Of a stretch of 64,000 bases of DNA, positions 2,305 through 61,811 are shown in pieces (position 1 is the stretch's first letter; each line of letters begins with the position of its first letter). Source of the DNA: Nonlabens antarcticus (GTDB taxonomy: Bacteria > Bacteroidota > Bacteroidia > Flavobacteriales > Flavobacteriaceae). The translations under genes were made by a program, and so were the position numbers. Under the pieces are notes generated by a model. That model saw nothing but the letters and a program-made list of their open reading frames with translations, was not told the origin of the DNA and searched no databases. The DNA lies in NCBI RefSeq assembly GCF_015356755.1, contig NZ_JADFCO010000065.1, positions 434,001 to 498,000 on the forward strand, given 5' to 3'.

Positions 2305-4466
2305 ACGGCGGTGGTAATGCGCGCTTCAACAACAGCCATTCCGAGCCGCAGCTGTCCGTAGCCGATTTTTCCATCAAAATGATCGAAAATAGGTTTAAGC
2401 GAATTTTCTTTTTGATAATTAGGCAGCATCTTTTCCAGCATTTCTAAATCAACTCCCTCTAGCAATTTCTCAACATCCACATCTCTATGGGAAGCATACC
2501 GCTTGCCTATATGTGCTAGAATAGTGTCAGCTTTCAAGCCTCTTTCTACTGCAATTTCATCTATACTTTTTCCATTCCAGAATAATTCCACGCTGTCCAT
2601 TACGGTATCTGTAAGACCGCCAGATTTTGCTTTTTTACGGGATTTTTTTTTGGGAGCTTCATCGCGATACACAAAATCTTCCGTTCTAGATTCTTTGTAA
2701 TCTTGAATTACTTTCAAAAACCCAAAAGCATATTTGTCATGTTTGTGGGTTCCTACACCAGTAATATCGGCAAACTGATTATCGTCCAGCGGTATTCTAC
2801 TAGCAATATCTTTTAAGGTCGCGTCACTGAAAACCATGTAGGGTGCGATACTTTCCTTGCGGGCAAGATCTGTTCGCAATTCTTTAAGGGCATCGTAAAG
2901 TTTACGGTTGACGTCTGTGGGTAATTCTGTAGTCGGTTGTGAAGTTTTCGCAGCGATGTCCTCTGGCTTAGGAATAACAGCGAGTTGAACGGCACGGTTA
3001 TCAAACAGCACTTCTTTGGACTGCTCCGTTAATTTCATGTGATTTTGCTCATGAAATGCAATTTCCAGCAAGCCTTGATTGATCATTTGGATGATATATT
3101 GTTGCCAGTTGCTCCAGGAAATTTCCCTACCGGTACCGTACGTTTTGATGACGTGAAAACCGCTTTCCATCACGCCGGCATTATTTGCACCGCGCAACAC
3201 ATCGATCAACAGGGTCAGGGAGCATTGTTCCTTCATCCTGTAAACGGCGCTAAGAGCCATTTGAGCTTGAACGGTAGCGTCAAAAAAGTCAGGTTTATTG
3301 AGACAGACATCACAGTTGCCACAATCTTCCGGTAAATATTCATTAAAATAGGAGAGTAACATGCGCCTGCGGCAGGTAAGCGCTTCACCAAATTGTTTCA
3401 TGCGCTCCAGTTTGGCCAGCTGTACTTCACTATTGCCGCTCGTCTCTGCAAACCGGCGCAGTTGCATCACATCTGCATAGCTGTGGAAAAGCAGTGCTCT
3501 CGATTCAATGCCATCCCGACCAGCACGACCTATTTCCTGATAATACCCCTCAATATTTTTAGGCATATTGTAATGGATCACAAATCGCACATTTGACTTG
3601 TCAATTCCCATCCCAAAAGCAATGGTCGCTACCACGATCTTGATCTCATCCTTTATAAATCGCTCTTGCACGCTTTCGCGAAAGCGGTTTTCCAGACCAG
3701 CATGGTAAGCTGCCGCAGAGTAGCCGTAGCTCTTCAATTTGCTGGAAAGGCTCTCACAGCTCTTGCGGCTCAAACAATAAATAATGCCGGATTCACCTTC
3801 GTATTTTTTGAGGAATCTACGTATTTGTGAAATTCTATTATTGCCGGGACGCACTTCCAGCATAATATTAGGACGGTCAAAGGATGCAATATATTCTTTA
3901 CCATCACTGATGGTAAGCTGTTTTTTAATGTCAGATCTGGTCGCTCGATCTGCCGTTGCCGTTAGGGCAATCAAGTTGGCGTCTGGGAAGGATTTTTTAA
4001 GATAGGCGAGTTGGGTGTATGCCGGTCTAAAATCGTGACCCCAAGTCGAAATACAGTGCGCCTCATCCACCGCGATCAAAGAAACGGTTATGGATGCCAG
4101 GTAATTTTGAAGCAGGGAAATACTCTCTGGCGCTACGTAAAGTAGTTTCAAACTGCCGTCCTGCAATTGCAAGATTACATCTTGTTGTTGCGTGGACTCC
4201 TGTGAACTATTAAAAAACCCAGCGGCAATACCGTTAGCATTAAGGGCATCCACTTGATCTTTCATAAGAGCGATAAGTGGCGATATAACTAGGGTGACTC
4301 CTTCCAGCATCAAAGCGGGAAGTTGAAAACACATTGATTTTCCACCGCCTGTAGGCATCACGACCATCAGGTCTTTTTTGTTCAGGACATCATCTATAAT
4401 TTCCTCTTGCAACGGTCGGAAACTATCATAACCAAAATGCTTTTTAAGCAATTCTAATTTTTTCAT
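2301..4466 (-). CDS. recQ: ATP-dependent DNA helicase RecQ
   Basis: A 3'-5' DNA helicase for recombination and repair, 721 residues. Seen in order: Walker A TGGGKS (39-44), DEAH box (134-137), motif VI QEIGRAGRDG (310-319), the RQC zinc cysteines C365, C382, C385 and C388, an HRDC domain (about 520-600), and a C-terminal helix-turn-helix-like segment (DSVELFWNGKSIDEIAVERG). I chose the ATG at 4466 because MKKLELLKKHFGYDSFRPLQ is the family N-terminus; an upstream in-frame ATG at 4529 would add 21 unconserved residues. A copy of the 16-base palindrome lies inside the gene, encoding RFRES. It precedes the SpoU gene with a 4-base overlap. Confidence 0.96.
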   Translation of the reverse strand: MKKLELLKKHFGYDSFRPLQEEIIDDVLNKKDLMVVMPTGGGKSMCFQLPALMLEGVTLVISPLIALMKDQVDALNANGIAAGFFNSSQESTQQQDVILQLQDGSLKLLYVAPESISLLQNYLASITVSLIAVDEAHCISTWGHDFRPAYTQLAYLKKSFPDANLIALTATADRATRSDIKKQLTISDGKEYIASFDRPNIMLEVRPGNNRISQIRRFLKKYEGESGIIYCLSRKSCESLSSKLKSYGYSAAAYHAGLENRFRESVQERFIKDEIKIVVATIAFGMGIDKSNVRFVIHYNMPKNIEGYYQEIGRAGRDGIESRALLFHSYADVMQLRRFAETSGNSEVQLAKLERMKQFGEALTCRRRMLLSYFNEYLPEDCGNCDVCLNKPDFFDATVQAQMALSAVYRMKEQCSLTLLIDVLRGANNAGVMESGFHVIKTYGTGREISWSNWQQYIIQMINQGLLEIAFHEQNHMKLTEQSKEVLFDNRAVQLAVIPKPEDIAAKTSQPTTELPTDVNRKLYDALKELRTDLARKESIAPYMVFSDATLKDIASRIPLDDNQFADITGVGTHKHDKYAFGFLKVIQDYKESRTEDFVYRDEAPKKKSRKKAKSGGLTDTVMDSVELFWNGKSIDEIAVERGLKADTILAHIGKRYASHRDVDVEKLLEGVDLEMLEKMLPNYQKENSLKPIFDHFDGKIGYGQLRLGMAVVEARITTAV
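3671..3686. repeat. 16-bp palindrome, perfect copy, inside recQ
   Basis: CGCTTTCGCGAAAGCG. In the recQ frame it encodes RFRES (residues 261-265), in the loop between helicase motifs IV and V. Confidence 0.95.
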
Positions 4467-4637
4467 GAGATTATATAAGTTTGTATGGCGTATAAAAGTT
4501 GAAGCTATAAAGTTACAAAAACGGCACAAGTATTGAGTTTTTAAAAGTTGTACTTAGGTGATCAGAAAACTTATGGATAAGACTCCAGATCAAAAACCTA
4601 GATTCCAAATGTTTTATATTTACCCATTATCTATCTC

Positions 4638-5450
4638 ATGAAAAATCTTTTTTTCCTATTTCTTACTCTAGGATGCACTTGCGCGACAGCTCAATCTATT
4701 AATGATTACAAGTATGTTATTGTAGAGAATCAATATGAGTTTCAGAATTCTGCTAATGAATATCGGTTGAATGAGCTCATGGAATTTTTATTACAGAAAT
4801 ACGGATTTGAAACTTACCGTAATAATGAAATTCTTCCCACAGATCTTAATCGTGGTCTTTGTAACAGTATGCAATTAAAAGTTGAAAAATCTGGAATACT
4901 TTGGGCAGACATCGATGCAAGGTTAGAAGATTGTTCTGGAAATGTATTGTTTAAAACGAAGGCGGCTAGAGGTACAGAAAAAGATTATCAAAAGGCATAC
5001 TTCAGTGCTGTACGCGAATCTTTTGAGTCTTTTGAAAGGTTAAAATATAAATATAACGGAGGTGAAAATTTAGAGCAATCGACTTCAATCGCTGTCGCCA
5101 TTGGTAAAGAAGTAAAGTCTGAGACTATTACTATTAAAGCAACAGACACTGCGCTTTCAAACAATAAGCAAACAAAAACGGAGGAGCTGCCTATAAATAG
5201 TGATAAGTCCATAGCATATGATTTTGAAGATATCTCAAATACCGAATATGCTTTGAAATTTAATGAGTCTAATGATTCCTTGAAGCTATATCAGTATGGC
5301 GTTGCAGTAGGTTCAGGACGTAAAACGGCTGCTGGAGTTTACTTAATTACTACCTCATCTTTCACGGGAGTAGGTTTCATGGAAAATGAGAAATTTGTCA
5401 TTGAATACGACGCAAACGGAGATCTAATGAGAATTATTCTAGAAAAATAG
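4638..5450 (+). CDS. Secreted protein of unknown function
   Basis: I do not recognise this 270-residue protein. It has a clear N-terminal signal peptide (hydrophobic residues 4-14, then CTCATAQS, cleavage after about residue 19). The first 140 residues look like one mixed alpha/beta domain with DYKYVIVENQYEFQ near the start, a paired Cys in the DCSG turn, and a predicted amphipathic helix. A low-complexity Ser/Thr/Lys linker follows, and then a short C-terminal beta-rich domain (YALKFNESNDSLKLYQYG onward). It is a single-gene unit with a TATATTTA -7-like box just upstream. Probably periplasmic or surface exposed. Confidence 0.75.
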   Translation: MKNLFFLFLTLGCTCATAQSINDYKYVIVENQYEFQNSANEYRLNELMEFLLQKYGFETYRNNEILPTDLNRGLCNSMQLKVEKSGILWADIDARLEDCSGNVLFKTKAARGTEKDYQKAYFSAVRESFESFERLKYKYNGGENLEQSTSIAVAIGKEVKSETITIKATDTALSNNKQTKTEELPINSDKSIAYDFEDISNTEYALKFNESNDSLKLYQYGVAVGSGRKTAAGVYLITTSSFTGVGFMENEKFVIEYDANGDLMRIILEK

Positions 5451-5827: not shown

Positions 5828-7522
5828 ATGCGCTGGACTCTTAAACCACTACCAGATCCTAAATTACAAAACAAGCTTTCTAACGATCTGAATATAGATC
5901 CAGTTCTTGCTGGCTTGCTGGTACAACGAGGCGTAGACACTTTCGCGAAAGCGAAATCATTTTTCCGCCCCTCATTAAACGAGTTGCACGACCCATTTCT
6001 AATGAAAGATATGGATCTTGCGGTTACACGCATTCAGAAAGCGGTTGAAAATCAAGAGAATATTCTAGTTTATGGTGATTATGATGTGGACGGTACGACT
6101 AGTGTTGCACTGGTTTCCTCATTTCTACAATCGTATTATCCCAAGGTAGCTACTTATATTCCAGATCGTTATGAGGAAGGTTATGGTGTAAGTTATCAAG
6201 GTATCGAGTTTGCTCATGACAATGATTTCACTCTTATCATCGCTTTAGATTGCGGTGTTAAAGCCATTGATAAGGTCGCTTATGCAAAGGAAAAGGGAGT
6301 TGATTTCATCATTTGCGACCACCACAGACCTGGAAAGACGTTGCCTGATGCAGTGGCTGTCCTAGATCCCAAACGAGCAGATTGCGATTATCCCTTTGAT
6401 GAGCTTTGCGGCTGTGGTGTTGGTTTCAAATTATGTCAGGCGATAACGAGTTCTAATAATTGGAATTTTGATATACTAATTCCCTATTTGGATTTAGTAG
6501 CAACAGCAATAGGTGCAGATATTGTCCCTATAAATGGAGAAAATAGGATTCTTGCTTTTCACGGTTTGCATGTGATTAATACGAGCCCACGGGCGGGTTT
6601 TCAAGCTATAATTTCGCAATTAAATAAAGATAAGCTTACAGCAACTGATGTGGTTTTTACGATCGCTCCACGTATCAATGCCGCTGGTCGTATGAAACAT
6701 GGACTTCATGCGGTACAGTTACTAACGGAAACGAACCTAGAGAAAGCTGTGAAATTTGCTAAAGAGATTGAACAATTCAATACAGATCGTAAGGAAACAG
6801 ATCGCTCTATTACCATTGAGGCGCTAGATCAAATATTGGATTCTTGCGAGACAGAGCGGTACTCTACGGTAGTTTATAATCCAGAATGGCACAAAGGGGT
6901 CATAGGAATTGTAGCGTCCCGATTAATGGAAAAATATTACAGACCTACACTAGTGTTTACTAAAAGTGGAGATTACCTCGCCGCAAGTGCTCGTAGTGTG
7001 AGAGGATTTGATGTTTATAACGCGCTGGAACAATGCTCAGAGTTTATCGAGCAATTTGGTGGACATATGTATGCTGCAGGTCTTACTCTAAAAGAGGAAA
7101 ACTTTGAAGCTTTCAAAAACCGATTTGAAGAGGTTGTTTGTGGAACAATTAAAATGCAACAACGTACGGAGGAAATATTGATTGATTGTCAGCTTCCATT
7201 TAGTTCTATCACGAATAAATTCTACCGCATACTTCAGCAAATGGAACCATTCGGTCCAGAGAATATGACACCCGTTTTCCTAACAGAAAAAGTGATAGAT
7301 ACCGGTTACGCAAAAACAGTAGGAGCTGACGATAATCATTTGAAATTATGCATTACAACGCAAAAGAAGAACGATTTGAAATTTAACGCTATCGGTTTTA
7401 ATCTGGGAGATAAATGTGATTTGATTAAAACTCAAAAAACTTTCAGTGCCGCATATTCCATTGATCTCAATACATGGCAGGGTGTTTCCAGCTTACAGTT
7501 GCGACTGCGGGATATTCAGTAA
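5828..7522 (+). CDS. recJ: Single-stranded-DNA-specific exonuclease RecJ
   Basis: A 5'-3' ssDNA exonuclease of the DHH phosphoesterase superfamily, 564 residues, normal length. Metal-binding motifs: DYDVDGT (84-90), Asp141 in ALDCGV, and the DHH triad in CDHHRPG (163-169). The DHHA1 domain with FGGHMYAAGL is in the last third, and the OB-fold substrate domain is C-terminal. It acts in RecFOR recombination and mismatch repair. A near-perfect copy of the palindrome lies at codons 37-42, read as FAKAK, in a poorly conserved N-terminal segment. Apparently monocistronic, converging on the response regulator. Confidence 0.95.
   Translation: MRWTLKPLPDPKLQNKLSNDLNIDPVLAGLLVQRGVDTFAKAKSFFRPSLNELHDPFLMKDMDLAVTRIQKAVENQENILVYGDYDVDGTTSVALVSSFLQSYYPKVATYIPDRYEEGYGVSYQGIEFAHDNDFTLIIALDCGVKAIDKVAYAKEKGVDFIICDHHRPGKTLPDAVAVLDPKRADCDYPFDELCGCGVGFKLCQAITSSNNWNFDILIPYLDLVATAIGADIVPINGENRILAFHGLHVINTSPRAGFQAIISQLNKDKLTATDVVFTIAPRINAAGRMKHGLHAVQLLTETNLEKAVKFAKEIEQFNTDRKETDRSITIEALDQILDSCETERYSTVVYNPEWHKGVIGIVASRLMEKYYRPTLVFTKSGDYLAASARSVRGFDVYNALEQCSEFIEQFGGHMYAAGLTLKEENFEAFKNRFEEVVCGTIKMQQRTEEILIDCQLPFSSITNKFYRILQQMEPFGPENMTPVFLTEKVIDTGYAKTVGADDNHLKLCITTQKKNDLKFNAIGFNLGDKCDLIKTQKTFSAAYSIDLNTWQGVSSLQLRLRDIQ
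5938..5953. repeat. 16-bp palindrome, 15/16 copy, inside recJ
   Basis: CACTTTCGCGAAAGCG, one mismatch to the consensus. Translated as TFAKA near the RecJ N-terminus. Confidence 0.85.
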
Positions 7523-10779: not shown

Positions 10780-10795
10780 CGCTTTCGCGAAAGCG
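10780..10795. repeat. 16-bp palindrome, perfect copy, intergenic
   Basis: CGCTTTCGCGAAAGCG in the divergent gap between the LpxH-like gene and the AlbA_2 gene. Confidence 0.95.
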
Positions 10796-11984: not shown

Positions 11985-12724
11985 GAACACTTGTTATAGG
12001 AGACATTCATGGCGGTTATCGCGCATTGAAACAATTACTGGAGCGACTCGATTTGCAGCCAGATGACCAGCTCATCTTTATGGGGGACTATGTGGATGGA
12101 TGGTCAGAAAGCTATGAGGTTATTGAGACCTTAATATCGCTTTCGCGAAAGCGGAAGCTCGACAATCATACAGCTCCTATTTTTCTACGTGGCAATCATG
12201 ATGAGTTGGTACTTGATTTTCTAGTCAAAGGAGAAGAAAATGAACAATGGTTGTACCACGGCGGCTCCAGTACTGTAAAGAGCTATGCAGATAGAACAGA
12301 TGCTGAAATTGCAATACACGTTGCATTTCTCACAGATGGGTTGATTAATTTTCACGAAGACAGAAATAACGGCTATTTCCACGCGGGATTTCACAACCTA
12401 AACGGTCCGCATTATGAATATTATAAAAACCTGCCCTACTGGGATCGATCTCTTTGGGAAATGGCATTGTGTATAGATCCAAATCTCGATGTAGATCATC
12501 CCAGATTTCCAAACAGATTAAAGCTTTACAAAGAAATATTTATAGGTCACACACCTACAACGCGACTGGATTCAATGGAACCTTTAAATGCAGCTAACAT
12601 CTGGAATGTAGATACGGGAGCAGCTTTTACTGGGCCATTGACGGCATTGTGTGTAGAAACAAAAGAATTCTGGCAAAGCGATCCACTACCAGGTTTATAT
12701 CCAGATGAAAAAGGTAGGAATTGA
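11981..12724 (+). CDS. PPP-type metallophosphoesterase (serine/threonine phosphatase-like)
   Basis: A 247-residue calcineurin-like phosphatase with metal motifs GDIHGG (7-12), GDYVDGW (37-43), RGNHDE and GHTPT, and a C-terminal NVDTGAAF, as in bacterial PrpA/ApaH-type enzymes. The start is TTG at 11981, overlapping the TGA of the AlbA_2 gene; there is no better ATG, because the catalytic GDIHGG begins at residue 7. A palindrome copy in the frame encodes LSRKR at about residue 54-58, between metal motifs. Substrate may be phosphoprotein or a dinucleoside polyphosphate. Confidence 0.88.
   Translation: MRTLVIGDIHGGYRALKQLLERLDLQPDDQLIFMGDYVDGWSESYEVIETLISLSRKRKLDNHTAPIFLRGNHDELVLDFLVKGEENEQWLYHGGSSTVKSYADRTDAEIAIHVAFLTDGLINFHEDRNNGYFHAGFHNLNGPHYEYYKNLPYWDRSLWEMALCIDPNLDVDHPRFPNRLKLYKEIFIGHTPTTRLDSMEPLNAANIWNVDTGAAFTGPLTALCVETKEFWQSDPLPGLYPDEKGRN
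12138..12153. repeat. 16-bp palindrome, perfect copy, inside phosphatase gene
   Basis: CGCTTTCGCGAAAGCG, read as LSRKR in the phosphatase frame. Confidence 0.95.
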
Positions 12725-15425: not shown

Positions 15426-15441
15426 CGCTTTCGCGAAAGCG
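15426..15441. repeat. 16-bp palindrome, perfect copy, intergenic
   Basis: CGCTTTCGCGAAAGCG, 16 bases after the zinc-ribbon gene stop. It may double as a hairpin in the 3' end of that transcript but has no T-run. Confidence 0.95.
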
Positions 15442-19005: not shown

Positions 19006-19478
19006 AAAAAATGATAATAGGTAAAGATACCATTTTTAGCTCTAAGGCTCTTAACGTTTGCCAGGGTGATCATAGTTGTATGTTACTTGAAATATTTCGC
19101 TTTCGCGAAAGCGAAAACAACATCTTCATTCAAAAATTGTTTGAGTTATGTATCAGTAAACAATCTGCGTAATTCAAACGGGCTGAAAGTGTAAAGCTGT
19201 GAATTAACAAGCATTTAACCGTGGTTTGTGATTGTTTAGGCAATGATTATTTCGATCTTTACAATGATGTGAATCACAATAAGGGAGTCTAGGTTTAGTC
19301 AAAAAAAATTGATCTTATTTCAATCTAAAAATTTCTATTTCGGCTAATAATTGTTCTGCAACTTTTCCGGGTGGTTTCAAAAATATTAAATGAAAAATTA
19401 AGTCTTTTATTAAAAAGACAGAAGATTTGGTTGGTTGGAAGCCGCCTGTTTACCTATCAAATGGTTGCGGGCGGTTTT
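19006..19478. other. Intergenic, 473 bases, possible small RNA on the plus strand
   Basis: Lies between gpsA (start) and nadD (end), both on the minus strand. It holds a palindrome copy (19098-19113), a perfect 7-bp hairpin GTCTTTT/AAAAGAC with loop ATTA (19402-19419), and a plus-strand terminator (19439-19480). As no plus-strand gene lies here, a non-coding RNA ending at that terminator is possible. I found no ORF and no convincing promoter. Confidence 0.35.
19098..19113. repeat. 16-bp palindrome, perfect copy, intergenic
   Basis: CGCTTTCGCGAAAGCG; symmetry extends three bases further on each side (19095-19116). Confidence 0.95.
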
Positions 19479-22571: not shown

Positions 22572-23243
22572 ATGAAATTAACCGTAGGCACACTTGTATC
22601 CACAAAGAAACTGAGTTTTCCGCAGCAGCAACTTGTGGAGCATAGTGGTGTGGGTCTCATTCATTACGATATTCTTAAGATCAAAACACGGTTAGTTAAT
22701 GAAGTTCCAGAGAACCTGATGAATGTTATTATTACCAGTAAAAATGCCATTCCTGCGGCAGTACACTGGAAAGATCACATCAAGAATATTTACTGCGTGG
22801 GCGATACGACAGCTGAAAAGTTGGTTTTCAATGGATTTCTGCCTCAAATGGTAGCTTCTGATTCTAAAACTCTGGCCGATAAGATCATTTCAAGTAATCC
22901 CGACCACACTTTTACCTATATGTGCGGTGATCACCGGCGGGATGAAATTCCGCAGTTATTTGAGGAAAATGAAATCCTGTTAAATGAGGTAATTGTTTAT
23001 GAATCTAAGGTCGTTGAGAAGGCCTTTGATCGTATTTTTGCAGCGGTTTTGTTTTACAGTCCTCGAGGGGTTTACGCTTTCGCGAAAGCGAACAAGCATC
23101 AACCACAGTGCGCAGTTTGCATAGGCGAAACGACCGCAGAAGCAGCGCGGGAAATGTTTCCCAACGTGGTGATTGCGAACAAACAAACCGTTGAAAATGT
23201 ATTGACAACCGCCATAAAACTATTGCGAGATGATAAAAAATGA
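22572..23243 (+). CDS. hemD: Uroporphyrinogen-III synthase
   Basis: A 223-residue enzyme that cyclises hydroxymethylbilane to uroporphyrinogen III. The fold is poorly conserved in sequence, but the [29 protein letters not shown] and [10 protein letters not shown] segments are diagnostic, and the gene directly precedes and overlaps hemE by 14 bases. I took ATG 22572 rather than the in-frame TTG at 22563. A perfect palindrome copy within the gene encodes AFAKA just after the conserved FYSPRGV segment. Confidence 0.92.
23075..23090. repeat. 16-bp palindrome, perfect copy, inside hemD
   Basis: CGCTTTCGCGAAAGCG, read as AFAKA in the HemD frame. Confidence 0.95.
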
Positions 23244-25694: not shown

Positions 25695-26474
25695 ATGATC
25701 AAGAACATCCTGACTGCACTTAAAGCTTACGGCTCCAGTTTTAAACTGATGAGCACATTAGGGCTGTGGAAATATTTTTTGGTTCCTATGTGCATCAGTT
25801 TTTTGTTTGCTGTATTAATAGGATTTGCGGCTTATGGGTTATCCGATAATCTTGCTGGTTTTTTAGCACGCATTTGGATCTGGGAAACAGGATCACAAAC
25901 GTTTACCGCTTTCGCGGAAGTTTTAAGTGTGATCTTCATTGTTATCATAGGACTGTTAGTGTACAAGCACTTTGTAATGGCATTGAGCGCTCCATTCATG
26001 TCGCCGGTTTCTGAGAAGATAGAGAAATTCCTGTATCCAGATTTGCAGCAGGATGCCACGCACCGTGTTACTTCTAATGCTTCACAACTTTATCGTGGGG
26101 TCCACATCAATATCAGGAATCTGGGTTTTGAATTACTAATAACTATTCCATGTTTACTTCTTAGTTTGATTCCGGTTTTTGGGATTGTTTTTTGGATTAT
26201 TGGATTTCTTGTACAATCGTATTACGCAGGATTTGGAAATATGGATTATACACTGGAACGCCACTTTAAGTACAAGGACAGCATTCGTTTTGTAAAGAGC
26301 CATAGAGGGTTTGCCATAGGTAACGGTATTGTTTTTAATGCGGTATTGTTGATTCCTATTATTGGAATAATTCTAGTGTTGCCCATATCTGTCACCGCAG
26401 CCAGTAAAACAACGCTAGAGCTGTTGCATCAACAAAAATTAGGTAGAGTTCCCTCGCCAGACGTTGCGGTATAA
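25695..26474 (+). CDS. EI24/CysZ-like membrane protein
   Basis: A 259-residue inner-membrane protein with about four helical hairpins (hydrophobic stretches near 27-48, 70-95, 145-180 and 205-235). The APFMSPVSEKIEKFL segment, the QSYYAGFGNMDYTLERH segment and the C-terminal GNGIVFNAVLLIPIIG are typical of the EI24 domain family, which includes the sulfate permease CysZ. Transport substrate here is unknown. It lies between trkH and hemF on the same strand. A degraded palindrome copy encodes AFAEV in a loop. Confidence 0.82.
   Translation: MIKNILTALKAYGSSFKLMSTLGLWKYFLVPMCISFLFAVLIGFAAYGLSDNLAGFLARIWIWETGSQTFTAFAEVLSVIFIVIIGLLVYKHFVMALSAPFMSPVSEKIEKFLYPDLQQDATHRVTSNASQLYRGVHINIRNLGFELLITIPCLLLSLIPVFGIVFWIIGFLVQSYYAGFGNMDYTLERHFKYKDSIRFVKSHRGFAIGNGIVFNAVLLIPIIGIILVLPISVTAASKTTLELLHQQKLGRVPSPDVAV
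25907..25922. repeat. 16-bp palindrome, degenerate copy (13/16), inside EI24 gene
   Basis: CGCTTTCGCGGAAGTT; three mismatches to consensus. Read as AFAEV. Confidence 0.55.
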
Positions 26475-28381: not shown

Positions 28382-28397
28382 CGCTTTCGCGAAAGCG
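28382..28397. repeat. 16-bp palindrome, perfect copy, intergenic
   Basis: CGCTTTCGCGAAAGCG, just before the end of the MATE gene on the minus strand; symmetry extends two further bases each side. Confidence 0.95.
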
Positions 28398-30809: not shown

Positions 30810-31643
30810 TTATTTTAAAAAATTAATGGTGCACTGAACAGCTTGTCGCAAATCAGCTGGCATTAATTTGGATTCCCACGGGTGCGAGGCACCGAAGGTA
30901 TGTCCCGCATTCCTAAGCAGCGATAATTGACCATAATTACTGGCTTTTTTCAATCGATAAGCATCATTGACGGGTACGGTTTCATCACCTGTTCCATGAA
31001 CTATTAAATGTGGGATTTTAAGATTTGAAGCGGCGTTAAGAATGTTGAGTTTTTCCTTATTTATCTCAAAATCTTCATACATCTGATAATAGAGAGGCAT
31101 GTCCTGATGCGTACGACCATTTTTCACATAGTAAACGCCGTCTTTTTTCCATTTTTCTAAATCTGCTCCAGATGGAAAGCGTTCTTCATAATCTGCCACG
31201 CCCGCCATGGTAACTATTTTTTTTATGCGGTGATCACTCGCCGCGGCAATGGTTGTAATCCCGCCAGCTCTGGAGTGACCTATAATATTTATTTGATCCT
31301 TAAATATGGGTAGGTCTGACAATTCTAACCAGTCTAGAACTCTTACTAAATCGCGAACTTCCAGGCTGTAATTATTGTTGCCGAATGCCTCAAGGTTTGG
31401 AAAGTCAATCGGTTGCTCTTGTGTGCCGCCATTGTGTGAGAAGTTAAATTTGATGAATAGGAATCCCGCTTTCGCGAAAGCGTCTCCCATTAAATTCCAC
31501 GCTCCCCAGTCTTTATAACCTTTCAACCCGTGACAGAACACCACAACCGGCAGTTTATTTTCCGTAGGGGTAAAAGTGTAATCCAGCAAAATGGATTTTC
31601 CGTTTTCTGATGCAATTTGAATGTTGTTTTTTTGATTCATCAT
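30810..31643 (-). CDS. Alpha/beta hydrolase (dienelactone hydrolase-like peptidase/esterase)
   Basis: A 277-residue alpha/beta hydrolase: CHGLKGYKDWG oxyanion loop (about 37-47), nucleophile elbow GHSRAGG (about 122-128), Asp in HGTGDETVP and His in NAGHTFG. Probably a cytosolic esterase or acyl-peptidase-like enzyme. Its ATG overlaps the AddB-like stop by four bases (ATGA), so it is the second gene of that unit. A palindrome copy encodes AFAKA in MGDAFAKAGF. Confidence 0.87.
   Translation of the reverse strand: MMNQKNNIQIASENGKSILLDYTFTPTENKLPVVVFCHGLKGYKDWGAWNLMGDAFAKAGFLFIKFNFSHNGGTQEQPIDFPNLEAFGNNNYSLEVRDLVRVLDWLELSDLPIFKDQINIIGHSRAGGITTIAAASDHRIKKIVTMAGVADYEERFPSGADLEKWKKDGVYYVKNGRTHQDMPLYYQMYEDFEINKEKLNILNAASNLKIPHLIVHGTGDETVPVNDAYRLKKASNYGQLSLLRNAGHTFGASHPWESKLMPADLRQAVQCTINFLK
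31467..31482. repeat. 16-bp palindrome, perfect copy, inside alpha/beta hydrolase gene
   Basis: CGCTTTCGCGAAAGCG, read as AFAKA on the minus strand. Confidence 0.95.
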
Positions 31644-37181: not shown

Positions 37182-40100
37182 CTAGCTCCAGCTCACGATG
37201 TTCAAATCGTCTGTATAGATTAAGATCTTGCGATCAATCGTATATCCCATAGAGATCAATAATGTGCCATAACCTTCAAGCTGTAATTTATGTTTCTCAT
37301 TCTCGCCACCCGTTTTGTAATCTATAATGATTATGGATTTTCCTTTTCTAACTAATCGATCTGGAATAGCCTTACTACCATCGGTTTTTAAAATTCCTTT
37401 TTCATTGATTCCATCAACTCCTTTTTCATAATAGATTGCTAGATCAGGATGAAAAATGATTTTTCTTATTTTATCAATCAATTCTTGGCCTTCAACATCA
37501 GTAAAGCTGCGATCCAGTGTCACAGCGTCCTCAACATCTTCTAGGCCTGCAACGTCTGATAATAGCGACAAGTAATAATGCAATTGCGTTCCAGCTTCAA
37601 TTGCATCAATGGCACCGCTTGCCCATAACAACCCTTTACGCGTAGAAAATGTAGACCTATTGGTCAAGTGACTTACAAAATAGCTGTCCATCAATTCGCT
37701 TGTAGCCACCGCAGTTTTTTTAGAGATTTTAAGAGAAGATCCATTTTGTGCTGTCTTATAGCCGTTCTTTTCTTCAAGTTCCCAACTGGATTTATCGATG
37801 AACTCCATCAGTAATTTGCTGTAGTTTTTCTTTTCCTTTTTATTTTCAAGACAACTCACATACAGCTGTTCCTTAGCACGCGTAAAGGCTACATATAAGG
37901 TATTGATCTGATCCATTTCTGCTTTTGAAAGTTGTTCTAAGTACATTTCTGACGCTGGCTGTGGATATTGTAAACACTCTTTCTTAAGCGAAATATACAG
38001 GTGTTCAAATCCTTGATACTCCTCTGCTGTTACTGGCATCCATCCCGTAACATCTCTCGCATCATCTAGAATCACATCACAATAGGGAACGATTACTACT
38101 GGAAATTCTAGACCTTTAGACTTGTGAATTGTCATTATCTGGACTGCTGTAGGATCATCTGCGGCAGGAACGCTCAAGCCATTTTGCTTGTGTTCCCACT
38201 GCTCTAAAAATGCTGATGCGGTCTTTTGAAGTCCTGCGGCAAATTCAAATACAAATTCCAGAAATGCCTGCAACCTCATGTCATGATTCTTTAATAAATC
38301 CAGTGCGACTGCTGCTTTTTCGGTTGCTTGAAATAAGGGCGCTTTCGCGAAAGCGAGATAGACATCACCCTCACTACTCAATATATTTTTAGAAATATCC
38401 TTAAGACTGGTATGCAAATGTTCCTGGATAAAATCATGGATGTCACCCAAGTTTTGTAGGAGGGCATATTGCAATAAAAATTCATAACGTGGCTGTTGCT
38501 GCTCTGGATAGAGACACATTCTCATGTATTGAACCAGCAATTGAACGCGTGGTGAAGCCGCTACTAATAAACTATCGCTGGAAACCACGCTCATATCGTT
38601 GCGCACTAAATATTGCGCAATTTCATCGCCTTGTTTCTTCTTACGTACTAAAACACAGATCTCATTAGGTGCAAAACCAGCATCAAGTGCCTGATCTATT
38701 TGCCGCTTGACGTGCAGCGGGTAAATGGTATTTAATTCTTCATCTTCTTCTAACGCCTCCTTTTCATCGCCGTCTAAAAAGTCGATCTGAACATATCCGC
38801 CGGTTTTATGAGTGGGTTCTTGATGAAGGTATTCTTGATAGAGGTTTTTATAAAGCTCGCTGCTGAGGTATCCACCATAATGATTGAAAAAGGCATTGTT
38901 GAAAGAAATAATGCCATCATAACTGCGCCAGTTTGTACCTAGCGTTACATTACTTTTCTCTTGCATGAACAGTTGATCACCAGTGAGAATATTTAGAAAC
39001 TGATCTGCATCGCCACCTCGCCATCGATAAATGGATTGCTTTGCATCACCTACCAGCATAAGGCTACCGCGAGTACCATCAGGACGTTCCTGACTAATAG
39101 GATTTTCAATAAGCGGCATGAGGTTTTCCCATTGCATGCGACTGGTATCCTGAAATTCATCCACAAAGTAATGACGGTAGCGCTCGCCTAATCGTTCATA
39201 AACAAATGGTGCGGGCTGATCTTTTATCTGTCTCGATAGAATGCCATTAAATTCATGTATAGGCACGATCTGCTCATCTGCTGTAATTTTATCTATTTCT
39301 TTGATCAGTTCATTGAGTAGAGAAAGCGCAGTGATACTGGATAATGCATTGCGATGCATTGAAATAACACCGGATTGTTCTTGAAATTCCTGAATGAGAC
39401 TTGCAAGTTCTGCCTGTTTATTATCTATTAAATCCTTATTCCCAGCTGCACTAGTTCCCGCAACCGATTCTGTCAAGGCTTTGTCTAAATATTTTTGCTG
39501 CCCATTGGGAGGTATGTTGTTTTCAGCAATCTTTTTAATCCATCCATAAATACCTCTAGATTTTCCCGAGAAATCATCTGATGTTAGACCATTAGAATCA
39601 TAATAGGAAATGAGGTCTTTACCTTGTTTCACCAGGCTTGTTTCGGCGCTGTTGATTAATTCATATAATTTTTTGCGTAATAGCAGAAAATCGGCAATGG
39701 TTTTTGTCTTGAGATGTTCTAGATAATGATAATGAGATTCACTCAAAATCAAACGGGCCACATTGTGTAGGTCAAATTCAATATCCCAACTTTTTCCTTC
39801 GTCAATTTTAGAAAGGGAGAATTCGATGAGTAATTTAGTCAGTTGTTTTTCTTTCCCAGCTCTTGAGAGCAGGTTATGAATAGCTTTAGAAATCAGGCTA
39901 TCGCTATCCAACTCAATTTCAAAACCATCTGGCAACTCCACTTCGCGAGCAAACGTCCTTAGAATCCTGTGATTAAAACTGTCAATGGTGACAATATCAA
40001 ACGCCGCATAGTCGTGCAGAAGTTTCTGCTCGATATTGATTGCTTTAGTCCGCAGTTGGTCATCGTTCATTCCAGTTTCTATCTGGATGTGATCTTTGAT

Positions 40101-40328: not shown

Positions 40329-40673
40329 ACCCAAATTTACCAATTAATGATCATTGTTATAGGTATGAAGGCGGTAGAAAGATAAAAGACTTTAGAGGGT
40401 AGTTGTAGCGTGGGAAAACGGATTGAGTTTTGAGTCATCCTACCGAAATGTCAAAATTAGATTAAGAAAAGCTCTCCTCTAGGGAAATGTCCGATGGGTA
40501 AAGGTGATCCTATCGGTACTTGTTAGCTAAATTGATTTCAGAACCAGCCCATCAAAAAGTCTTTTCCCACCGTTAATGTTTATGCATATTATAACACCTA
40601 CAATTTTATGTAAAGCCATTGTTGATGTAACTTTATACCTAAGCACTGAATAACTAACTAAAAATATAAAATA
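40329..40673. other. Intergenic, 345 bases, divergent promoter region
   Basis: Between the AddA-like gene (minus) and the superoxide dismutase gene (plus). A 7/8 match to the -7 box, TAACTTTA (40628-40635), lies 38 bases before the sod ATG with a TTTTATG about 20 bases upstream. No ORF or terminator seen. Confidence 0.35.
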
Positions 40674-41777: not shown

Positions 41778-43676
41778 TCAATAAGCCCGTTCATCATTCT
41801 TCTCATAGAAATTGATAAAGGCTTTATTTACGACACGATTTCCACCATCTGTTGGATAGTTTCCTGTAAAATACCAATCCCCTAAATTCTTAGGGCAAGC
41901 TTTATGAAGATTATCCACCGTTTGATAGATCACATCAACTTTTGCATTAATTGTTTCATCAGAGAGTAACTCTGCTATTTTGTCTGAGATTTCTTCATAT
42001 GTAAATGGATCGTAGAATTCCTTGACATAATTGATGACATCGCGATCTTCGTATTCTAATTGTAATTTACACTTCTCGTAAACTTCTTTTATGACTGATT
42101 CCGTCCCGCGGTCTTTGTGCAAATGCAGTGCTGCTTGAAAGGCAACTAATCCTTCCAGTCGTGCCATATCAATCCCATAACAATCAGGATATCTGATTTG
42201 TGGTGCACTCGATACAATCACAATGCTTTTAGGGTTCAATCGATCCATCATTTTGAGAATGGATTTTTTCAAGGTAGTACCGCGAACTATGGAATCATCA
42301 ATGATCACTAAGTTATCAGTAGGTTTGACCACACCATAAGTAACGTCGTAAACGTGTGCCACTAGATCATCGCGGGAGGAATCCTCTGTAATAAAGGTGC
42401 GCAGTTTTGCGTCTTTAATGGCAATTTTCTCAGTGCGCAGCTTTCGCGAAAGCGTCTTTTCAACCTGCTCCGCAGTTAGTTTGCCTTCTCCAGCAAGAAT
42501 GGCATCTCTTTTCTGCTCGTTTAAAACTTGGTGTCCAGCTTCGATCATCCCGTAGAAGGAAGTTTCTGCTGTATTTGGAATGTAAGAGAAAACGCTGTGA
42601 TCAATGTCACCACCTATTTTCTCCATGATTTTAGGAAATAATAATTTCCCAAGCATTTTGCGTTCCTGATAGATTTCTGCATCGCTACCGCGGGAGAAAT
42701 AAATGCGTTCAAAAGAACAAGCCTTGCGTTCTAGTGGCTCGCTAATCTGATCTAAAGTCACAGTACCATCTTTCTTAATGATGATCGCTTTACCAGGGTC
42801 TAGTTCGTGAACGTCCTCAAATCTGGCATTAAACGCGGTCTGGATTACTGGGCGTTCACTTGCTACTACCACAACCTCGTCATCCTGATAATAATAAGCG
42901 GGCCTTATGCCAGCGGGATCGCGCAGTAAAAAGGCATCACCGTGTCCCATTAAACCACCCATCGCATAACCACCATCCCAATCGCGGGCACTTTTACGTA
43001 GGATTTTAGCAACATTGATTTCTTCGGCGATTTTAGGAGAAGCTTCAATTTTTGAAAATCCTTTCTTCTTAAATTTCTTGTATAATTTCCGAACCTCGTT
43101 GTCCTGGAAATGCCCCACTTTTTCCATCACCGTTACGGTGTCTGCCATATCTTTGGGGTGTTGACCTAGTTCTACGAGCTTATTAAAAAGCTTAGCAACG
43201 TTTGTCATATTGAAGTTACCAGCCATAATCAGGTTGCGATGCATCCAGTTATTCTGCCGTAAAAAGGGATGAACCGCTTCTATGGAATTTTTACCAAAGG
43301 TTCCATAACGCACGTGTCCCATCAACAATTCTCCCACATAGGGAATGTTCTTTTTTTGAGAATCAACATCATCCTTCATTTCTGGATGAGCCACCATTTC
43401 TTCATTGATCCGATTATTAATCTGCGAAAAAATATCTTGAATAGGTTGTGATTCATTGCTGCGCACTCGAGAAATGTAGCGTTCCCCAGGTTTCACATCT
43501 AACTTGATACTAGCAAACCCAGCGCCATCCTGACCGCGGTTGTGCTGCTTTTCCATCATTAAGTACATCTTGTTGATGCCGTAAAATGCCGTGCCGTATT
43601 TTTCCTTATAATATTCCAGCGGCTTTAACAACCGGATTAAAGCAATACCACATTCATGTTTTAATTCATCGCTCAT
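41778..43676 (-). CDS. Long PurF-like class II amidotransferase/phosphoribosyltransferase
   Basis: A 632-residue paralogue of amidophosphoribosyltransferase, which uses glutamine and PRPP to make phosphoribosylamine. Nucleophile Cys9 (HECGIALI) would be exposed after removal of an eight-residue propeptide; GHVRYGT and AGNFNM complete the glutaminase, and VIIDDSIVRGTTL is the PRPP loop. It is about 130 residues longer than typical PurF, the extra lying in several insertions (about 75-120, 195-225 and 380-440). In Bacteroidota a shorter PurF usually exists elsewhere, so this may have another role. A palindrome copy encodes LSRKL. Confidence 0.85.
   Translation of the reverse strand: MSDELKHECGIALIRLLKPLEYYKEKYGTAFYGINKMYLMMEKQHNRGQDGAGFASIKLDVKPGERYISRVRSNESQPIQDIFSQINNRINEEMVAHPEMKDDVDSQKKNIPYVGELLMGHVRYGTFGKNSIEAVHPFLRQNNWMHRNLIMAGNFNMTNVAKLFNKLVELGQHPKDMADTVTVMEKVGHFQDNEVRKLYKKFKKKGFSKIEASPKIAEEINVAKILRKSARDWDGGYAMGGLMGHGDAFLLRDPAGIRPAYYYQDDEVVVVASERPVIQTAFNARFEDVHELDPGKAIIIKKDGTVTLDQISEPLERKACSFERIYFSRGSDAEIYQERKMLGKLLFPKIMEKIGGDIDHSVFSYIPNTAETSFYGMIEAGHQVLNEQKRDAILAGEGKLTAEQVEKTLSRKLRTEKIAIKDAKLRTFITEDSSRDDLVAHVYDVTYGVVKPTDNLVIIDDSIVRGTTLKKSILKMMDRLNPKSIVIVSSAPQIRYPDCYGIDMARLEGLVAFQAALHLHKDRGTESVIKEVYEKCKLQLEYEDRDVINYVKEFYDPFTYEEISDKIAELLSDETINAKVDVIYQTVDNLHKACPKNLGDWYFTGNYPTDGGNRVVNKAFINFYEKNDERAY
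42439..42454. repeat. 16-bp palindrome, 15/16 copy, inside PurF-like gene
   Basis: AGCTTTCGCGAAAGCG; one mismatch at the outer base. Read as TLSRKL in an insertion of the PurF-like protein. Confidence 0.85.
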
Positions 43677-44723: not shown

Positions 44724-45398
44724 TTATGATTCTATAGAAGCAATCTCTTTCAACGCATCGCTTTCAATCCTAGATTGCTTGTAATCATTCACAGCAACGT
44801 CTATCATAGCTCTTGCAATAGTTTGAGGATGAATGGTGCGGTACTTTTTAAAACTTCCAACTAACAATGGATCGATCAATTTCTGGAATTTTCCCCATAG
44901 ATCTTCAAAGGTTCTTTTTTCTTGTCGATCGCCACTTATAAGTGCAGGCTGTACAAAATAACAACGCTCAAATTCAAGTTTTTCAATGTCCCGCTCCATC
45001 TCGCCTTTCCCTTTATTATAACTGAATCTGCTATTAGGGTCTGCTCCTAGCGCAGATATAGCAATTACCTTATTTATGCCGTTTTCTCTCGCCGTTTTTG
45101 CTACATCTACAGGTAAATCGTGCTCAATGCGATAATATTCCTCAGAATCTGGCGTATTAGCTTTAGTTGTTCCCGTGCAAATAAAAAGATGATCACCTTG
45201 AAGTTCCTCTTTATACGTTGTGGGATCAAATAAATCTGCAAGATAATTCTCGTGCTTTGGGTGGTTGTTGGGAATACGCTTTCGCGAAAGCGTAATTACT
45301 TTCTCATACCTGCTATCTTCTAGCAGTTGTAGTAATAATGTAGAACCTACTAGTCCTGTTGCGCCGATGATAACCGCGCTTAATCCTTTATTTTCCAT
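44724..45398 (-). CDS. NAD(P)-binding Rossmann oxidoreductase (atypical SDR, HTATIP2-like)
   Basis: A 224-residue atypical short-chain dehydrogenase. Dinucleotide motif IIGATGLVGSTLL (11-23), then CTGTTKANTPDSEEYYRIEHDLP, ISALGADPNSRFSYNKGKGEME (active-site Tyr/Lys), and the C-terminal IHPQTIARAM segment seen in this group. Such proteins are often of unknown substrate. A palindrome copy encodes LSRKR right after the first beta strand (VITLSRKRIPNN), replacing the usual cofactor-specificity loop residues. Confidence 0.83.
   Translation of the reverse strand: MENKGLSAVIIGATGLVGSTLLLQLLEDSRYEKVITLSRKRIPNNHPKHENYLADLFDPTTYKEELQGDHLFICTGTTKANTPDSEEYYRIEHDLPVDVAKTARENGINKVIAISALGADPNSRFSYNKGKGEMERDIEKLEFERCYFVQPALISGDRQEKRTFEDLWGKFQKLIDPLLVGSFKKYRTIHPQTIARAMIDVAVNDYKQSRIESDALKEIASIES
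45277..45292. repeat. 16-bp palindrome, perfect copy, inside Rossmann oxidoreductase gene
   Basis: CGCTTTCGCGAAAGCG, read as LSRKR on the minus strand. Confidence 0.95.
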
Positions 45399-51432: not shown

Positions 51433-51996
51433 ATGAAGAAACTCGTACTTTTTGCAAGTGGCAGTGGTTCAAACGTTCAGGCGATACTAGATCATTTCAC
51501 TAATTCTGACCAGATTCAAGTCTCTCTGATATTGTCTAACAACCCACTAGCAGGTGTTTTAGAACGGGCCAAAAAGGCCCAGGTGGAGTGTTTAGTATTT
51601 AATAAGTTTGCTTTCGCGGAAGCGGGCTCCATCCACAAAATACTGCAACAAATCAATCCAGACCTGATCATTCTCGCGGGCTTTTTATGGAAAATACCCA
51701 ATTTCATGGTGACAGAATTTTCTGAAAAAATTATAAATATCCATCCAGCACTTCTTCCCAAATACGGAGGGAAAGGCATGTATGGCAGTCACGTTCACAA
51801 TGCTGTGGTCGCAAATCAAGAGGTAGAAAGCGGGATTACCATCCATTATGTCAATGAGAATTATGATGAAGGCGCGATCATCAAACAGGCCGTTTGCAAC
51901 ATTCTTCCTTCAGACACTCCAGCTGACGTTGCCCGTAAAATCCACGATCTGGAACAGCAATATTTTCCCATAACCATTGAAAAACTGTTGCAGTGA
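51433..51996 (+). CDS. purN: Phosphoribosylglycinamide formyltransferase
   Basis: A 187-residue enzyme of purine synthesis (GAR to FGAR with 10-formyl-THF). N-terminal LFASGSGSNVQAI (PRPP-like phosphate site), catalytic IINIHPALLPKYGGKGMYG (Asn, His) and Asp in NYDEGAII are present. A palindrome copy (one in degenerate form) encodes AFAEA at residues about 60-64. The next gene, rnhA, begins inside the purN stop codon (GTGA). Confidence 0.95.
   Translation: MKKLVLFASGSGSNVQAILDHFTNSDQIQVSLILSNNPLAGVLERAKKAQVECLVFNKFAFAEAGSIHKILQQINPDLIILAGFLWKIPNFMVTEFSEKIINIHPALLPKYGGKGMYGSHVHNAVVANQEVESGITIHYVNENYDEGAIIKQAVCNILPSDTPADVARKIHDLEQQYFPITIEKLLQ
51609..51624. repeat. 16-bp palindrome, degenerate copy (14/16), inside purN
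   Basis: TGCTTTCGCGGAAGCG; read as AFAEA in PurN. Confidence 0.7.
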
Positions 51997-54541: not shown

Positions 54542-56900
54542 TTTCCTCTGATTCTGTGGTGATATTTTTCTTGATGACGATCGCATCGTTTAGCACAAAC
54601 GGCATAGGCATTGTGTTTTCTGAACGGGCACTCACATCAAATCCTGGTTGCTTCAATAAGTCGAAACTAGCAGCATAAACCTCGAATTCTAGGGCTATTT
54701 GTGCATCAAAAGTCAACTCCATCACGAGCGGCGCATTGTTAGAAACATAATAGCTAATCATGCGATTGCCGCGACGTTTTGCAAACGGAATTCCGTCATT
54801 GTTCACGGGAACCGTAGCGCCATTGATTTTGGCGTTTGTAAATTGAAATTTTAGATCGCAAAATACTTCCCAGCGTTCCACTTTTCGCTCACTACTCACA
54901 ATCATTTTAATGCGGCGTTTTCCTTCAATGATCGTATCGACGGTAATTTCATGGTTAATTTCTGGCAACTCGACATATTTTGCTGGCGTTACATAAGTGA
55001 AGGCACCGGCATATTTTGAATCGATGGTATTAGAATTTAATTCTTTTGCTAGGGTTGGATTTTGGCCTATTTTTTCTTTTGTCCAGTCGCTCAAATTTTG
55101 GTCATAGGTTGCCCAGTTTGCCGTTTGTGAGTCAGCATCTGAGAGGTAGACTAAGCTGGTCTTTTGTGGTTGGGTTGGAGAGAATTCCGCTTTCGCGAAA
55201 GCGGAAAAAACAAAAACCCAACAAATAATCAACGAGATTATCCCCAGCACATCTTTTCTGCGGTAATGTCCCAAAATGGGTAGCAACAGACTGAACAATA
55301 GCGAACTCAAAATAGCTGCGACAAACAAAATCCCCATGCCCAGCGCCACTGGAAATGCCGTGACAAATGGCGCAAAAATAAATATGGCGGGCACTGAAAA
55401 CAGCAAGATCACGATGTAACTGGGACGTTTTCTAAATATATGCAGCCACAACATAACCAGACCTGCAAAAAGCGGAACGATGAAAAAACCTGCTCCCGGC
55501 AAATATGCTGCCGGTATTAATCCCGAATCACCTACTGGAAAAGCTACTAAAAGACAAATGATCCAAAGCAGAATGAGTGGCGCCACAAGATGACTGGTCA
55601 CACGATCTTTCCTGAAAAACAGATGGTATAAAAAGAATGAAACCGCAATCCCAAAAAACGCGGCAGCTCCTACCCACAAATAACCCGTAGCAGGAAAAAC
55701 AGCCGATTGCTCAATGTAAAAGTTGGTGGTTTGAAGCGCCTTCCACGTATAATTAGGCACCAGAAATCCTAAAATTAAACTCCCCAATAATGGTAGGAAA
55801 CCTATAAATGATTGCGGGATTGAAATCCGGTTTTTGCGTACGCCATAAATGATCAGAACGACGAGCAAAATACCGCTGAGAATAATTAACAACGGCATCC
55901 ATGAAAATGGATAGCTGACCATTTTTATTATGGGCAAAGGGAAATAAATATCATCCATTCCCTGCTCAATTTTGAGTCCATTGCTCAAATCCGCATCTGC
56001 CAGATAAGCGAGTAGAGGCATTAAATAACTGCCTTGGTGGGCTAGGGTATTGCGATCCAGATTTTCATAGGTATCCAGCTGAGTGTGATAATCAATGTGA
56101 TCACCGATAAAAGCAAAATTGAGTCCGTTAATAGAAGCTTTTTCCCGAAAAATGGTCAAATCCGTATCGTTTGGCAGTTTTTTGTAAATGCTGTAAGCTA
56201 GGGAATTGGCTACCGGATAATCCACATTTGCTTTTTTGAAAGCATTGATAATGTTGCGATTCCCGCCGTTTGTTTCCACCAGCATATAACTGGGTCCACC
56301 ACTACCGCGTGCTTCAAAGTTGAGCACCATTTTTACATCAGATGCCCAGCGGTGCTGGGTTACAAATAGATTAGCGCCGTTCAAGCCTAGTTCTTCACCG
56401 TCAGTAATAAGAATTATGACATCATTTTTAGGTTGATGATCTGTCAAATATGCACGAATTCCTTCTATAATAGTGGCGATTCCTGAGGCGGCATCACTAG
56501 CTCCCATGGCAGAGTGCGGGTCGCTGTCGTAATGACTCATGAGAACGATGGCGTCGTTTGTATTTGCAGTACCTTCAATACGCGCCATGATATTCACGGG
56601 TCTTGAAAGATTCCCGCTGGCATCGATATCAAAACCGGTTTGGGTTTCTGTTTTCAGCCCCATTTTATCTAGGGTGCGCTTTATGTAATTGCGGTTGTCT
56701 TCATGTCCAGCGCTACCCAGATAATGCGGAGCGGTAGACAATGCTTTCACATGTTGTAATGCTCTAGCGGTGGACCATTCATTTGCAGGTACATCATTTT
56801 TAACAGCGCTACTAGGAGTCTGACTCGAAAATGCATACCAAATCAAACCCATCAAAATAAGAAAGGATAACGCAGATGTTACATGTGATTTAGGTCTCAT
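54534..56900 (-). CDS. M28-family zinc peptidase with C-terminal membrane domain
   Basis: A 788-residue membrane-bound aminopeptidase. An N-terminal helix (about 8-24) anchors the protein; the M28 domain follows with zinc ligands in MSHYDSD, SDAASG, TDGEELGLNG and HIDYHTQLD. The second half has about eight membrane helices and a C-terminal periplasmic domain, an architecture like Fxna/ERMP1-type proteases. Outer leaflet or periplasmic peptide processing is likely. A palindrome copy encodes AFAKA directly after a membrane helix (WVFVFSAFAKAEFSPTQ). Confidence 0.9.
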   Translation of the reverse strand: MRPKSHVTSALSFLILMGLIWYAFSSQTPSSAVKNDVPANEWSTARALQHVKALSTAPHYLGSAGHEDNRNYIKRTLDKMGLKTETQTGFDIDASGNLSRPVNIMARIEGTANTNDAIVLMSHYDSDPHSAMGASDAASGIATIIEGIRAYLTDHQPKNDVIILITDGEELGLNGANLFVTQHRWASDVKMVLNFEARGSGGPSYMLVETNGGNRNIINAFKKANVDYPVANSLAYSIYKKLPNDTDLTIFREKASINGLNFAFIGDHIDYHTQLDTYENLDRNTLAHQGSYLMPLLAYLADADLSNGLKIEQGMDDIYFPLPIIKMVSYPFSWMPLLIILSGILLVVLIIYGVRKNRISIPQSFIGFLPLLGSLILGFLVPNYTWKALQTTNFYIEQSAVFPATGYLWVGAAAFFGIAVSFFLYHLFFRKDRVTSHLVAPLILLWIICLLVAFPVGDSGLIPAAYLPGAGFFIVPLFAGLVMLWLHIFRKRPSYIVILLFSVPAIFIFAPFVTAFPVALGMGILFVAAILSSLLFSLLLPILGHYRRKDVLGIISLIICWVFVFSAFAKAEFSPTQPQKTSLVYLSDADSQTANWATYDQNLSDWTKEKIGQNPTLAKELNSNTIDSKYAGAFTYVTPAKYVELPEINHEITVDTIIEGKRRIKMIVSSERKVERWEVFCDLKFQFTNAKINGATVPVNNDGIPFAKRRGNRMISYYVSNNAPLVMELTFDAQIALEFEVYAASFDLLKQPGFDVSARSENTMPMPFVLNDAIVIKKNITTESEENE
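55188..55203. repeat. 16-bp palindrome, perfect copy, inside M28 peptidase gene
   Basis: CGCTTTCGCGAAAGCG; symmetry extends three bases further each side. Read as AFAKA on the minus strand. Confidence 0.95.
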
Positions 56901-57732: not shown

Positions 57733-57761
57733 GCTGATTGCCAATTTTTAAATGAACGGGA

Positions 57762-58088: not shown

Positions 58089-58104
58089 CATTTTCGCGGA
58101 AGCG
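58089..58104. repeat. 16-bp palindrome, degenerate copy (13/16), intergenic
   Basis: CATTTTCGCGGAAGCG, upstream of hemH. Confidence 0.5.
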
Positions 58105-59351: not shown

Positions 59352-59410
59352 GTTTCTGAAATTTCTTCACAGTATTTGAGATTTCAATTTATTTGCTCTG
59401 ACAGCTTTTT

Positions 59411-60166: not shown

Positions 60167-60250
60167 GTTTTTGTTTTGAAGATATTGATTTTTAATCATC
60201 CCAAATTTTAAAGAATAGTTAATCCTAATAAGGTTGTTTCTTAACTAGCT

Positions 60251-61717: not shown

Positions 61718-61795
61718 CACTTTCTTTTCAGTTAGTTGTATTAATTTTATCTTGAAAAATAAACTTCTCTATTATTGCAGTAAGTGGTATTGTAT

Positions 61796-61811
61796 CGCTT
61801 TCGCGAAAGCG
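61796..61811. repeat. 16-bp palindrome, perfect copy, intergenic
   Basis: CGCTTTCGCGAAAGCG, between the MATE and thioesterase genes. Confidence 0.95.

Follow-up and report, generated by a model that had tools for sequence, protein, structure and literature searches.

Why does one palindrome recur 18 times within 64,000 nt of Nonlabens antarcticus DNA (NZ_JADFCO010000065.1, positions 434,001–498,000, forward strand; this whole stretch is called the window hereafter)? The full motif is a palindrome of 14–16 bp, GCTTTCGCGAAAGC, in which the outer C/G is less strict, and its degenerate copies retain the core while often losing three edge bases on one side. We propose that it is a putative self-DNA uptake signal of natural transformation, a reading to which we assign, from the combined analyses described here, a probability of roughly 0.4.

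Abundance and anatomy of the palindrome

All 18 copies listed in an initial annotation of the window were recovered in place, 13 of them exact, two with one mismatch, one with two and two with three. Dinucleotide shuffles of the window (n = 100) contained 0.17 copies on average and two at most, and an order-3 Markov model gives about 8e-6 copies per 64 kb, in agreement with the chance rate of about 1 in 100,000 that the annotation had estimated. The whole-genome count that it had proposed as a check yielded 480 exact 16-mers in 3.27 Mb, where 0.0004 are expected, and the reversed control occurred 0 times; the copies are thus neither limited to the window nor near the Markov expectation. Across four genomes the 16-mer exceeds the order-3 Markov expectation by 1e5- to 1e7-fold, and the 10-base core, TTTCGCGAAA, is found 691 times in the window genome against about 4 expected. 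The copies in the window, located by sequence match and gene calls and given without strand, are listed below; G242, G394 and G010 are Nonlabens relatives, and G190 and G206 are further carriers of the motif.

3671..3686, exact, within a RecQ-like helicase gene
5938..5953, one mismatch, within a recJ-like gene; G242, G394 and G190 have an intact core at this position, G206 one change
10780..10795, exact, intergenic
12138..12153, exact, coding; G010 and G242 keep the core, G394 has one change
15426..15441, exact, intergenic
19098..19113, exact, intergenic; also exact in G394
23075..23090, exact, coding; also exact in three of three aligned Nonlabens relatives
25907..25922, three mismatches, coding
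28382..28397, exact, intergenic
31467..31482, exact, coding
33815..33830, exact, within an AddB-like nuclease gene (PDDEXK_1 domain)
38340..38355, exact, within an AddA-like helicase gene (UvrD domains)
42439..42454, one mismatch, within a PurF-like gene
45277..45292, exact, coding
51609..51624, two mismatches, coding
55188..55203, exact, coding
58089..58104, three mismatches, intergenic
61796..61811, exact, intergenic

The core is embedded in characteristic arms, which we profiled over 372 arms after excluding 15 stray hits and eleven island stretches. At outward positions 2–15, G falls to 1–16% (median 8%) against 17–20% past position 30, and A makes up 24–75%; the 162 arms of intergenic sites alone show the same G-poor, A-rich profile. 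Agreement between the arms of one site is 0.293, compared with 0.289 for shuffled partners. Because the arms do not pair, a hairpin is the poorer reading, and the motif with its symmetric A-rich, G-poor arms of some 15–30 bp would most plausibly form a symmetric recognition site in double-stranded DNA. A hairpin, terminator or other RNA element was rejected on the same ground and because convergent gene ends are not preferred. In G190 the bases directly outward of the core are G (89%) and C (87%), with G at the third position in just 57%. Judged by eye, and with word counts also made, the flanks tend to TTC-motif-GAA in Nonlabens and to TA-motif-TA in Dokdonia.

The motif had been likened to HIP1. 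The two are alike in kind, as strict palindromes that recur across the genomes of related genera in coding as well as non-coding DNA, but they differ in sequence, length and taxon. HIP1 is GCGATCGC, an 8-bp word of cyanobacteria that passages of PMC4390886 link to methyltransferases and for which they propose a methyltransferase-driven ratchet, whereas the motif here has 14–16 bp plus arms, and the even spacing described below was measured here only. A similar by-product of methylation or mismatch repair would suit a palindrome that contains CGCG/TCGCGA. Outside the motif, however, the window contains 9 copies of TCGCGA (24 in total less 15), close to the roughly 9 estimated from base composition, and the fixed 10–16 bp unit with its arms is longer than methyltransferase sites, of which we know none of such length. 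We therefore regard this origin as very unlikely.

Spacing and genomic context

For sites with at most two mismatches, the coefficient of variation (CV) of the spacing, about 1 for random placement, is 0.38 in the window (16 sites), 0.48 in G242 (68 sites) and 0.57 in G206 (72 sites). Taking all 18 window sites it is 0.338, an evenness reached by 2 of 100,000 random placements. Gaps below 1 kb are scarce, 1 of 67 in G242 against 15.5 expected and 6 of 71 in G206 against 18.4. Pooled over the 172 gaps of the window, G242 and G206, the hazard is 0.02 per kb for distances under 0.5 kb, reaches about 0.6 at 3–5 kb, dips to 0.39 at 5–6 kb and stands at 1.1 at 6–8 kb. If the palindrome is an uptake signal, a protein at the cell surface or in the periplasm, probably acting as a symmetric dimer, would prefer DNA fragments bearing the site, and recombination of these fragments into the chromosome would spread it. 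Such molecular drive would continue until nearly each few-kb fragment holds a site, and even spacing would follow. In passages of PMC7811141, a relatively even distribution is expected from drive in Haemophilus, and uptake sequences are under-represented in coding and newly acquired segments.

With open reading frames (ORFs) of at least 100 aa counted as coding, the density per kb in coding and intergenic DNA is 0.179 and 0.612 in the window, 0.130 and 1.193 in G242, and 0.178 and 1.424 in G206, so that intergenic DNA is 3–9 times denser in three of four genomes. About half or more of the copies are coding; all three frames occur, with AFAKA the commonest reading (87 of 155 coding sites). A codon or peptide artefact was rejected because three frames are used and intergenic copies exist. 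By gene orientation, intergenic density is 0.98 per kb between convergent genes, 1.09 between divergent and 1.65 between tandem genes.

Could the sites halt a processive helicase-nuclease, and so protect self DNA, as Chi does? Their density is similar, with a mean gap of 3.4–4.1 kb against 3.9 kb for Chi, temperate-type phages carry them, and each site is preceded on its 5' side by a G/T-rich strand, the kind that RecA favours. Chi, however, is asymmetric, strand-biased and randomly spaced: over 150 kb of Escherichia coli, our yardstick, 37 sites are distributed 27:10 between the strands with a CV of 1.08. An enzyme reading a single strand would have no need of a palindrome; lone half-sites, however, hardly occur, as 15 of the 16 copies of CGAAAGCG on the plus strand of the window lie inside motif copies. 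The tree of the AddB-like protein (30 genomes) does not unite the carriers. A Chi signal read by an AddB-like nuclease was rejected on these grounds, and we consider a Chi-like role in general to be quite unlikely.

A segregation role was among the functions first suggested; one exerted through ParB is not borne out either. parS and the sites of Noc, MatP and SlmA type are likewise palindromes, which are read by dimers, but the motif is distinct from canonical parS, which occurs separately in 1–2 copies per carrier genome. Neither the parS consensus, nor a restriction to a few sites near the origin, nor a cognate ParB was found for the palindrome: ParB_N gives a single hit in each of the five other carriers, whereas the window genome has three, of which two lie in ORFs some 600 aa long. 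In G190, which is one contig with parS at 1.02 Mb, 24 stretches (465 kb, 89 cores, 1.0–6.7 per 20 kb) show no visible trend towards origin or terminus. An expanded parS or Noc system was therefore rejected.

Conservation of sites, an island and phages

The comparison with relatives covered seven window sites. Four coding sites align to three Nonlabens relatives, and the core is kept in 8 of these 12 comparisons, at a background identity of 66–76%; the changes are substitutions, without 16-base insertions. Among the three intergenic sites, only one could be aligned through the motif; the alignment is to G394 alone, where the copy is exact. Positions kept at such background identity, together with the even spacing, make the product of a mutational hotspot, also raised by the annotation, unlikely. 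The many near-identical copies of a palindrome might recall a mobile or replicative repeat spread by insertion, whether related to repetitive extragenic palindromes or miniature inverted-repeat transposable elements or acting as an RNA hairpin or terminator. Against this stand the substitutions at orthologous sites, on which an insertion element was rejected, flanks that share no longer unit where inspected, arms that do not co-vary, the large coding share in all three frames and the lack of preference for convergent gene ends; such an origin appears extremely improbable.

Some neighbours of the sites may be recorded here. The genes holding the copies at 33815, 38340 and 42439 we take to be those of AddB, AddA and PurF. 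The AddB-like (31640–34372) and AddA-like (37182–40343) genes lie near each other, and the AddB-like protein shares only 48–55% identity with its counterparts in Nonlabens relatives, compared with 84–85% for the PurF-like protein. A protein with SLFN_AlbA_2 and DUF5929 domains is encoded at 10848–11984, adjoining an intergenic copy.

The window genome contains a 53-kb island (C58, 45.6–98.9 kb) with genes for TraG, a MobB relaxase, an integrase and BREX components (BrxC, PglZ), which by its gene content looks like a conjugative element. It holds two bare cores but, from the exact copy at one border to that at the other, 0 copies with at most two mismatches. Among viral contigs the exact motif was found in 41 stretches, several of which, with high GC, look like chance. 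A Mu-like contig of 37.4 kb, encoding terminase, portal, tail-sheath and transposition proteins, has 7 cores in 27.9 kb (three non-overlapping stretches), and an integrase-bearing contig has 2 cores in 14 kb; host assignments for these contigs are putative. The lytic Nonlabens phage P12024S (35.7 kb) has 0 copies, where host density would give 7–9.

These observations bear on the main rival explanation, in which a chromosome-organising protein, of nucleoid or SMC-loading type, would bind the sites in dimeric form and divide the chromosome into domains of about 3.5 kb. The even spacing with its few short gaps, the symmetric, footprint-like arms, the spread of sites over the whole chromosome in G190 and the conservation of their positions would all be accounted for. 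The near-absence of sites from the 53-kb island and their absence from the lytic phage speak against it, as does the finding that the five carriers besides the window genome have no additional protein of ParB type; in addition, no motif-binding protein was found in searches outside of which lay methylases, gyrase and most DNA-binding families. We judge this explanation unlikely, though it deserves serious consideration.

Distribution among Flavobacteriaceae

Which bacteria carry the palindrome? In our sample of 397 Flavobacteriaceae genomes, the exact 16-mer is present in 48 and dense in six only, the other 42 having at most 13 copies. Counts are 480, 495, 579 and 448 in Nonlabens genomes, 630 in G206 and 153 in G190; the core occurs 559–1107 times in these six and 0–34 times in the 391 others. 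A scan of named genomes returned at least 107 stretches, and among the matches listed 87 belong to Nonlabens or Dokdonia, 5 to strain BBFL7 and 15, with a single copy per stretch, to other bacteria. The palindrome thus belongs to Nonlabens and Dokdonia-type genomes. The tree of the protein that we take to be PurF, built from 30 genomes, does not make Nonlabens the sister of the group of G190, G206 and G144, which forces at least two changes; two gains, or one gain with losses, would fit this tree alike. The papers listed from the searched literature, mostly without subscription journals, gave no description of the element under its motif strings, iterated palindromes, uptake sequences in Bacteroidetes and Flavobacteriaceae, or palindromes of Nonlabens and Dokdonia; the 12-, 14- and 16-mer strings were absent from this literature, and the 10-mer occurs without description of an element.

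In motif-poor genera, metal-efflux gene islands (gene names assigned by eye) carry 2–4 palindromes in each of nine stretches from seven genomes (G078, G101, G111, G087, G012, G144 and G337). The distance between palindromes for like gene pairs is 933 bp in G078, G101 and G087 and 2446–2479 bp in G078, G144 and G012, and for a second gene pair 2449–2481 bp in G111 and G087; like spacing for like gene pairs points to a common transferred source. A separate repeat in G190 consists of the words ACAACGGTCT, with 9 occurrences in 60 kb, and AACGGTCTCG, with 7.

A second iterated motif

A k-mer screen of 40 kb from each of 19 other genera and of 105 kb of G076 placed words of the type TTTCCGAAG among the top five of G007, G045, G054, G063, G078 and G076. 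Counts of TTTCCGAAG in the 397 genomes reach 1166 with both strands summed. Relative to the Markov expectation in the samples, the excess is 103-fold in G076, 10 in G012, 9.8 in G063, 7.7 in G007, 6.5 in G045, 6.0 in G054, 5.0 in G100, 4.7 in G027 and 3.5 in G078, the other 15 of 24 genomes having 0.5–2.0. The site in G076 is TTAAAATTTCCGAAGnAAAAA, found on both strands with A/T-rich flanks, and 12 of 40 copies are intergenic. In seven of the genera TTTCCGAAG is independent of gene strand (24 sense, 26 antisense), and its occurrence in both senses rules out a codon or peptide artefact. An apparent depletion in Nonlabens, seen in counts, vanishes against the Markov expectation. Published matches to such words, among those listed, look like primer or construct sequences by their titles. 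The TTTC-C-GAA frame shared with the palindrome suggests that the two may be dialects of one system, and TTTCCGAAG behaves as a genus dialect would.

Candidate uptake machinery

ComEC is encoded in 22 of 22 genomes. A DUF5689 protein is encoded in 29 of 30, G030 being the exception, and in 29 of 29 loci inspected by eye its gene directly follows the end of a barrel-like ORF. Riemerella, placed in Flavobacteriaceae by the authors of PMC8459023, is transformed without pilus homologs according to passages of that report and requires, among others, ComEC, DprA and ComF as well as the operon RA0C_RS04920/04915. The DUF5689 protein of the window genome also has a choice-of-anchor J domain, like RA0C_RS04920, and we infer that the DUF5689 and barrel genes may be this same operon. 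Three barrel fragments tested gave no Pfam match. Riemerella columbina favours its own DNA, and its k-mer survey gave A/T-rich words only (PMC7965970). A well-supported barrel clade is a lead only: 13 of its 16 rows come from genomes that have an iterated motif, compared with 4 of the 13 remaining rows (Fisher 0.0095, a test that ignores descent). The DUF5689 protein is longer (>650 aa) in G076, G054, G039 and G047, and its tree sets G242 and G010 apart from G000 (the window genome) and G394, though all are Nonlabens.

Does the palindrome act as an uptake sequence?

Like the uptake signal sequences (USS) of Pasteurellaceae and the DNA uptake sequences (DUS) of Neisseriaceae, which also show lineage dialects, the palindrome is massively over-represented, with hundreds of copies and a core in A/T-rich flanks. 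It is evenly distributed in the window genome, G242 and G206, and is sparse in coding DNA (clearly in three of four genomes, barely in G190) and in newly acquired DNA (one island). Unlike USS and DUS, it is longer and palindromic, five of six carriers lack a pilus/secretion ATPase hit above cut-off, and its role is one that we infer. Most testable features of uptake sequences are thus present, with the exception of a non-palindromic core and a pilus machine, and we say for this reason that the palindrome works like an uptake sequence. We do not class it as a proven one, since its core is palindromic, no receptor was found and the uptake role is a matter of interpretation.

Several observations weigh against an uptake role. 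The palindrome is perfect, whereas known uptake sequences are not palindromes (passages of PMC1939737), and a machine of type IV pilus kind was not found: the ATPase PF00437 exceeds the cut-off in one of 22 genomes, the Nonlabens carrier G242. G190, for which the sample is small, has 10 sites within 60 kb whose spacing is no different from random (CV 0.88), and its densities of 0.171 coding and 0.225 intergenic per kb show little coding avoidance. The motif carriers do not group together in the trees of ComEC (20 genomes), of DUF5689 (29) or of the barrel fragment (29); the idea that one of these carries the specificity found no support, and no receptor was identified. As for TTTCCGAAG, genic sites in G076 lean antisense (8:20), and spacing is uneven there (CV 0.87 in joined stretches, 1.20 in 40 kb) and, with few sites, in seven other genera (CV 0.66–1.47). 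The literature covered contained no report of transformation of Nonlabens or Dokdonia.

What would an uptake signal mean for this family? Two proteobacterial families are known to take up DNA sequence-selectively. It is conceivable, though we hold it rather doubtful, that Flavobacteriaceae possess a pilus-independent, sequence-selective uptake whose dialects differ between genera, many of them using TTTCCGAAG and Nonlabens and Dokdonia using GCTTTCGCGAAAGC. The latter two lineages, which are not sisters, would then share one dialect and could exchange genes freely, and the palindrome would mark DNA with a past in either of them, for example the metal-efflux islands of other genera. Should the role be architectural instead, the even grid of about 3.5 kb would represent a new kind of chromosome landmark. 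A self-DNA signal in Flavobacteriaceae, if confirmed, would explain the preference of R. columbina for its own DNA, offer a handle on a transformation machine without type IV pili, and provide a marker of gene flow between marine bacteria.

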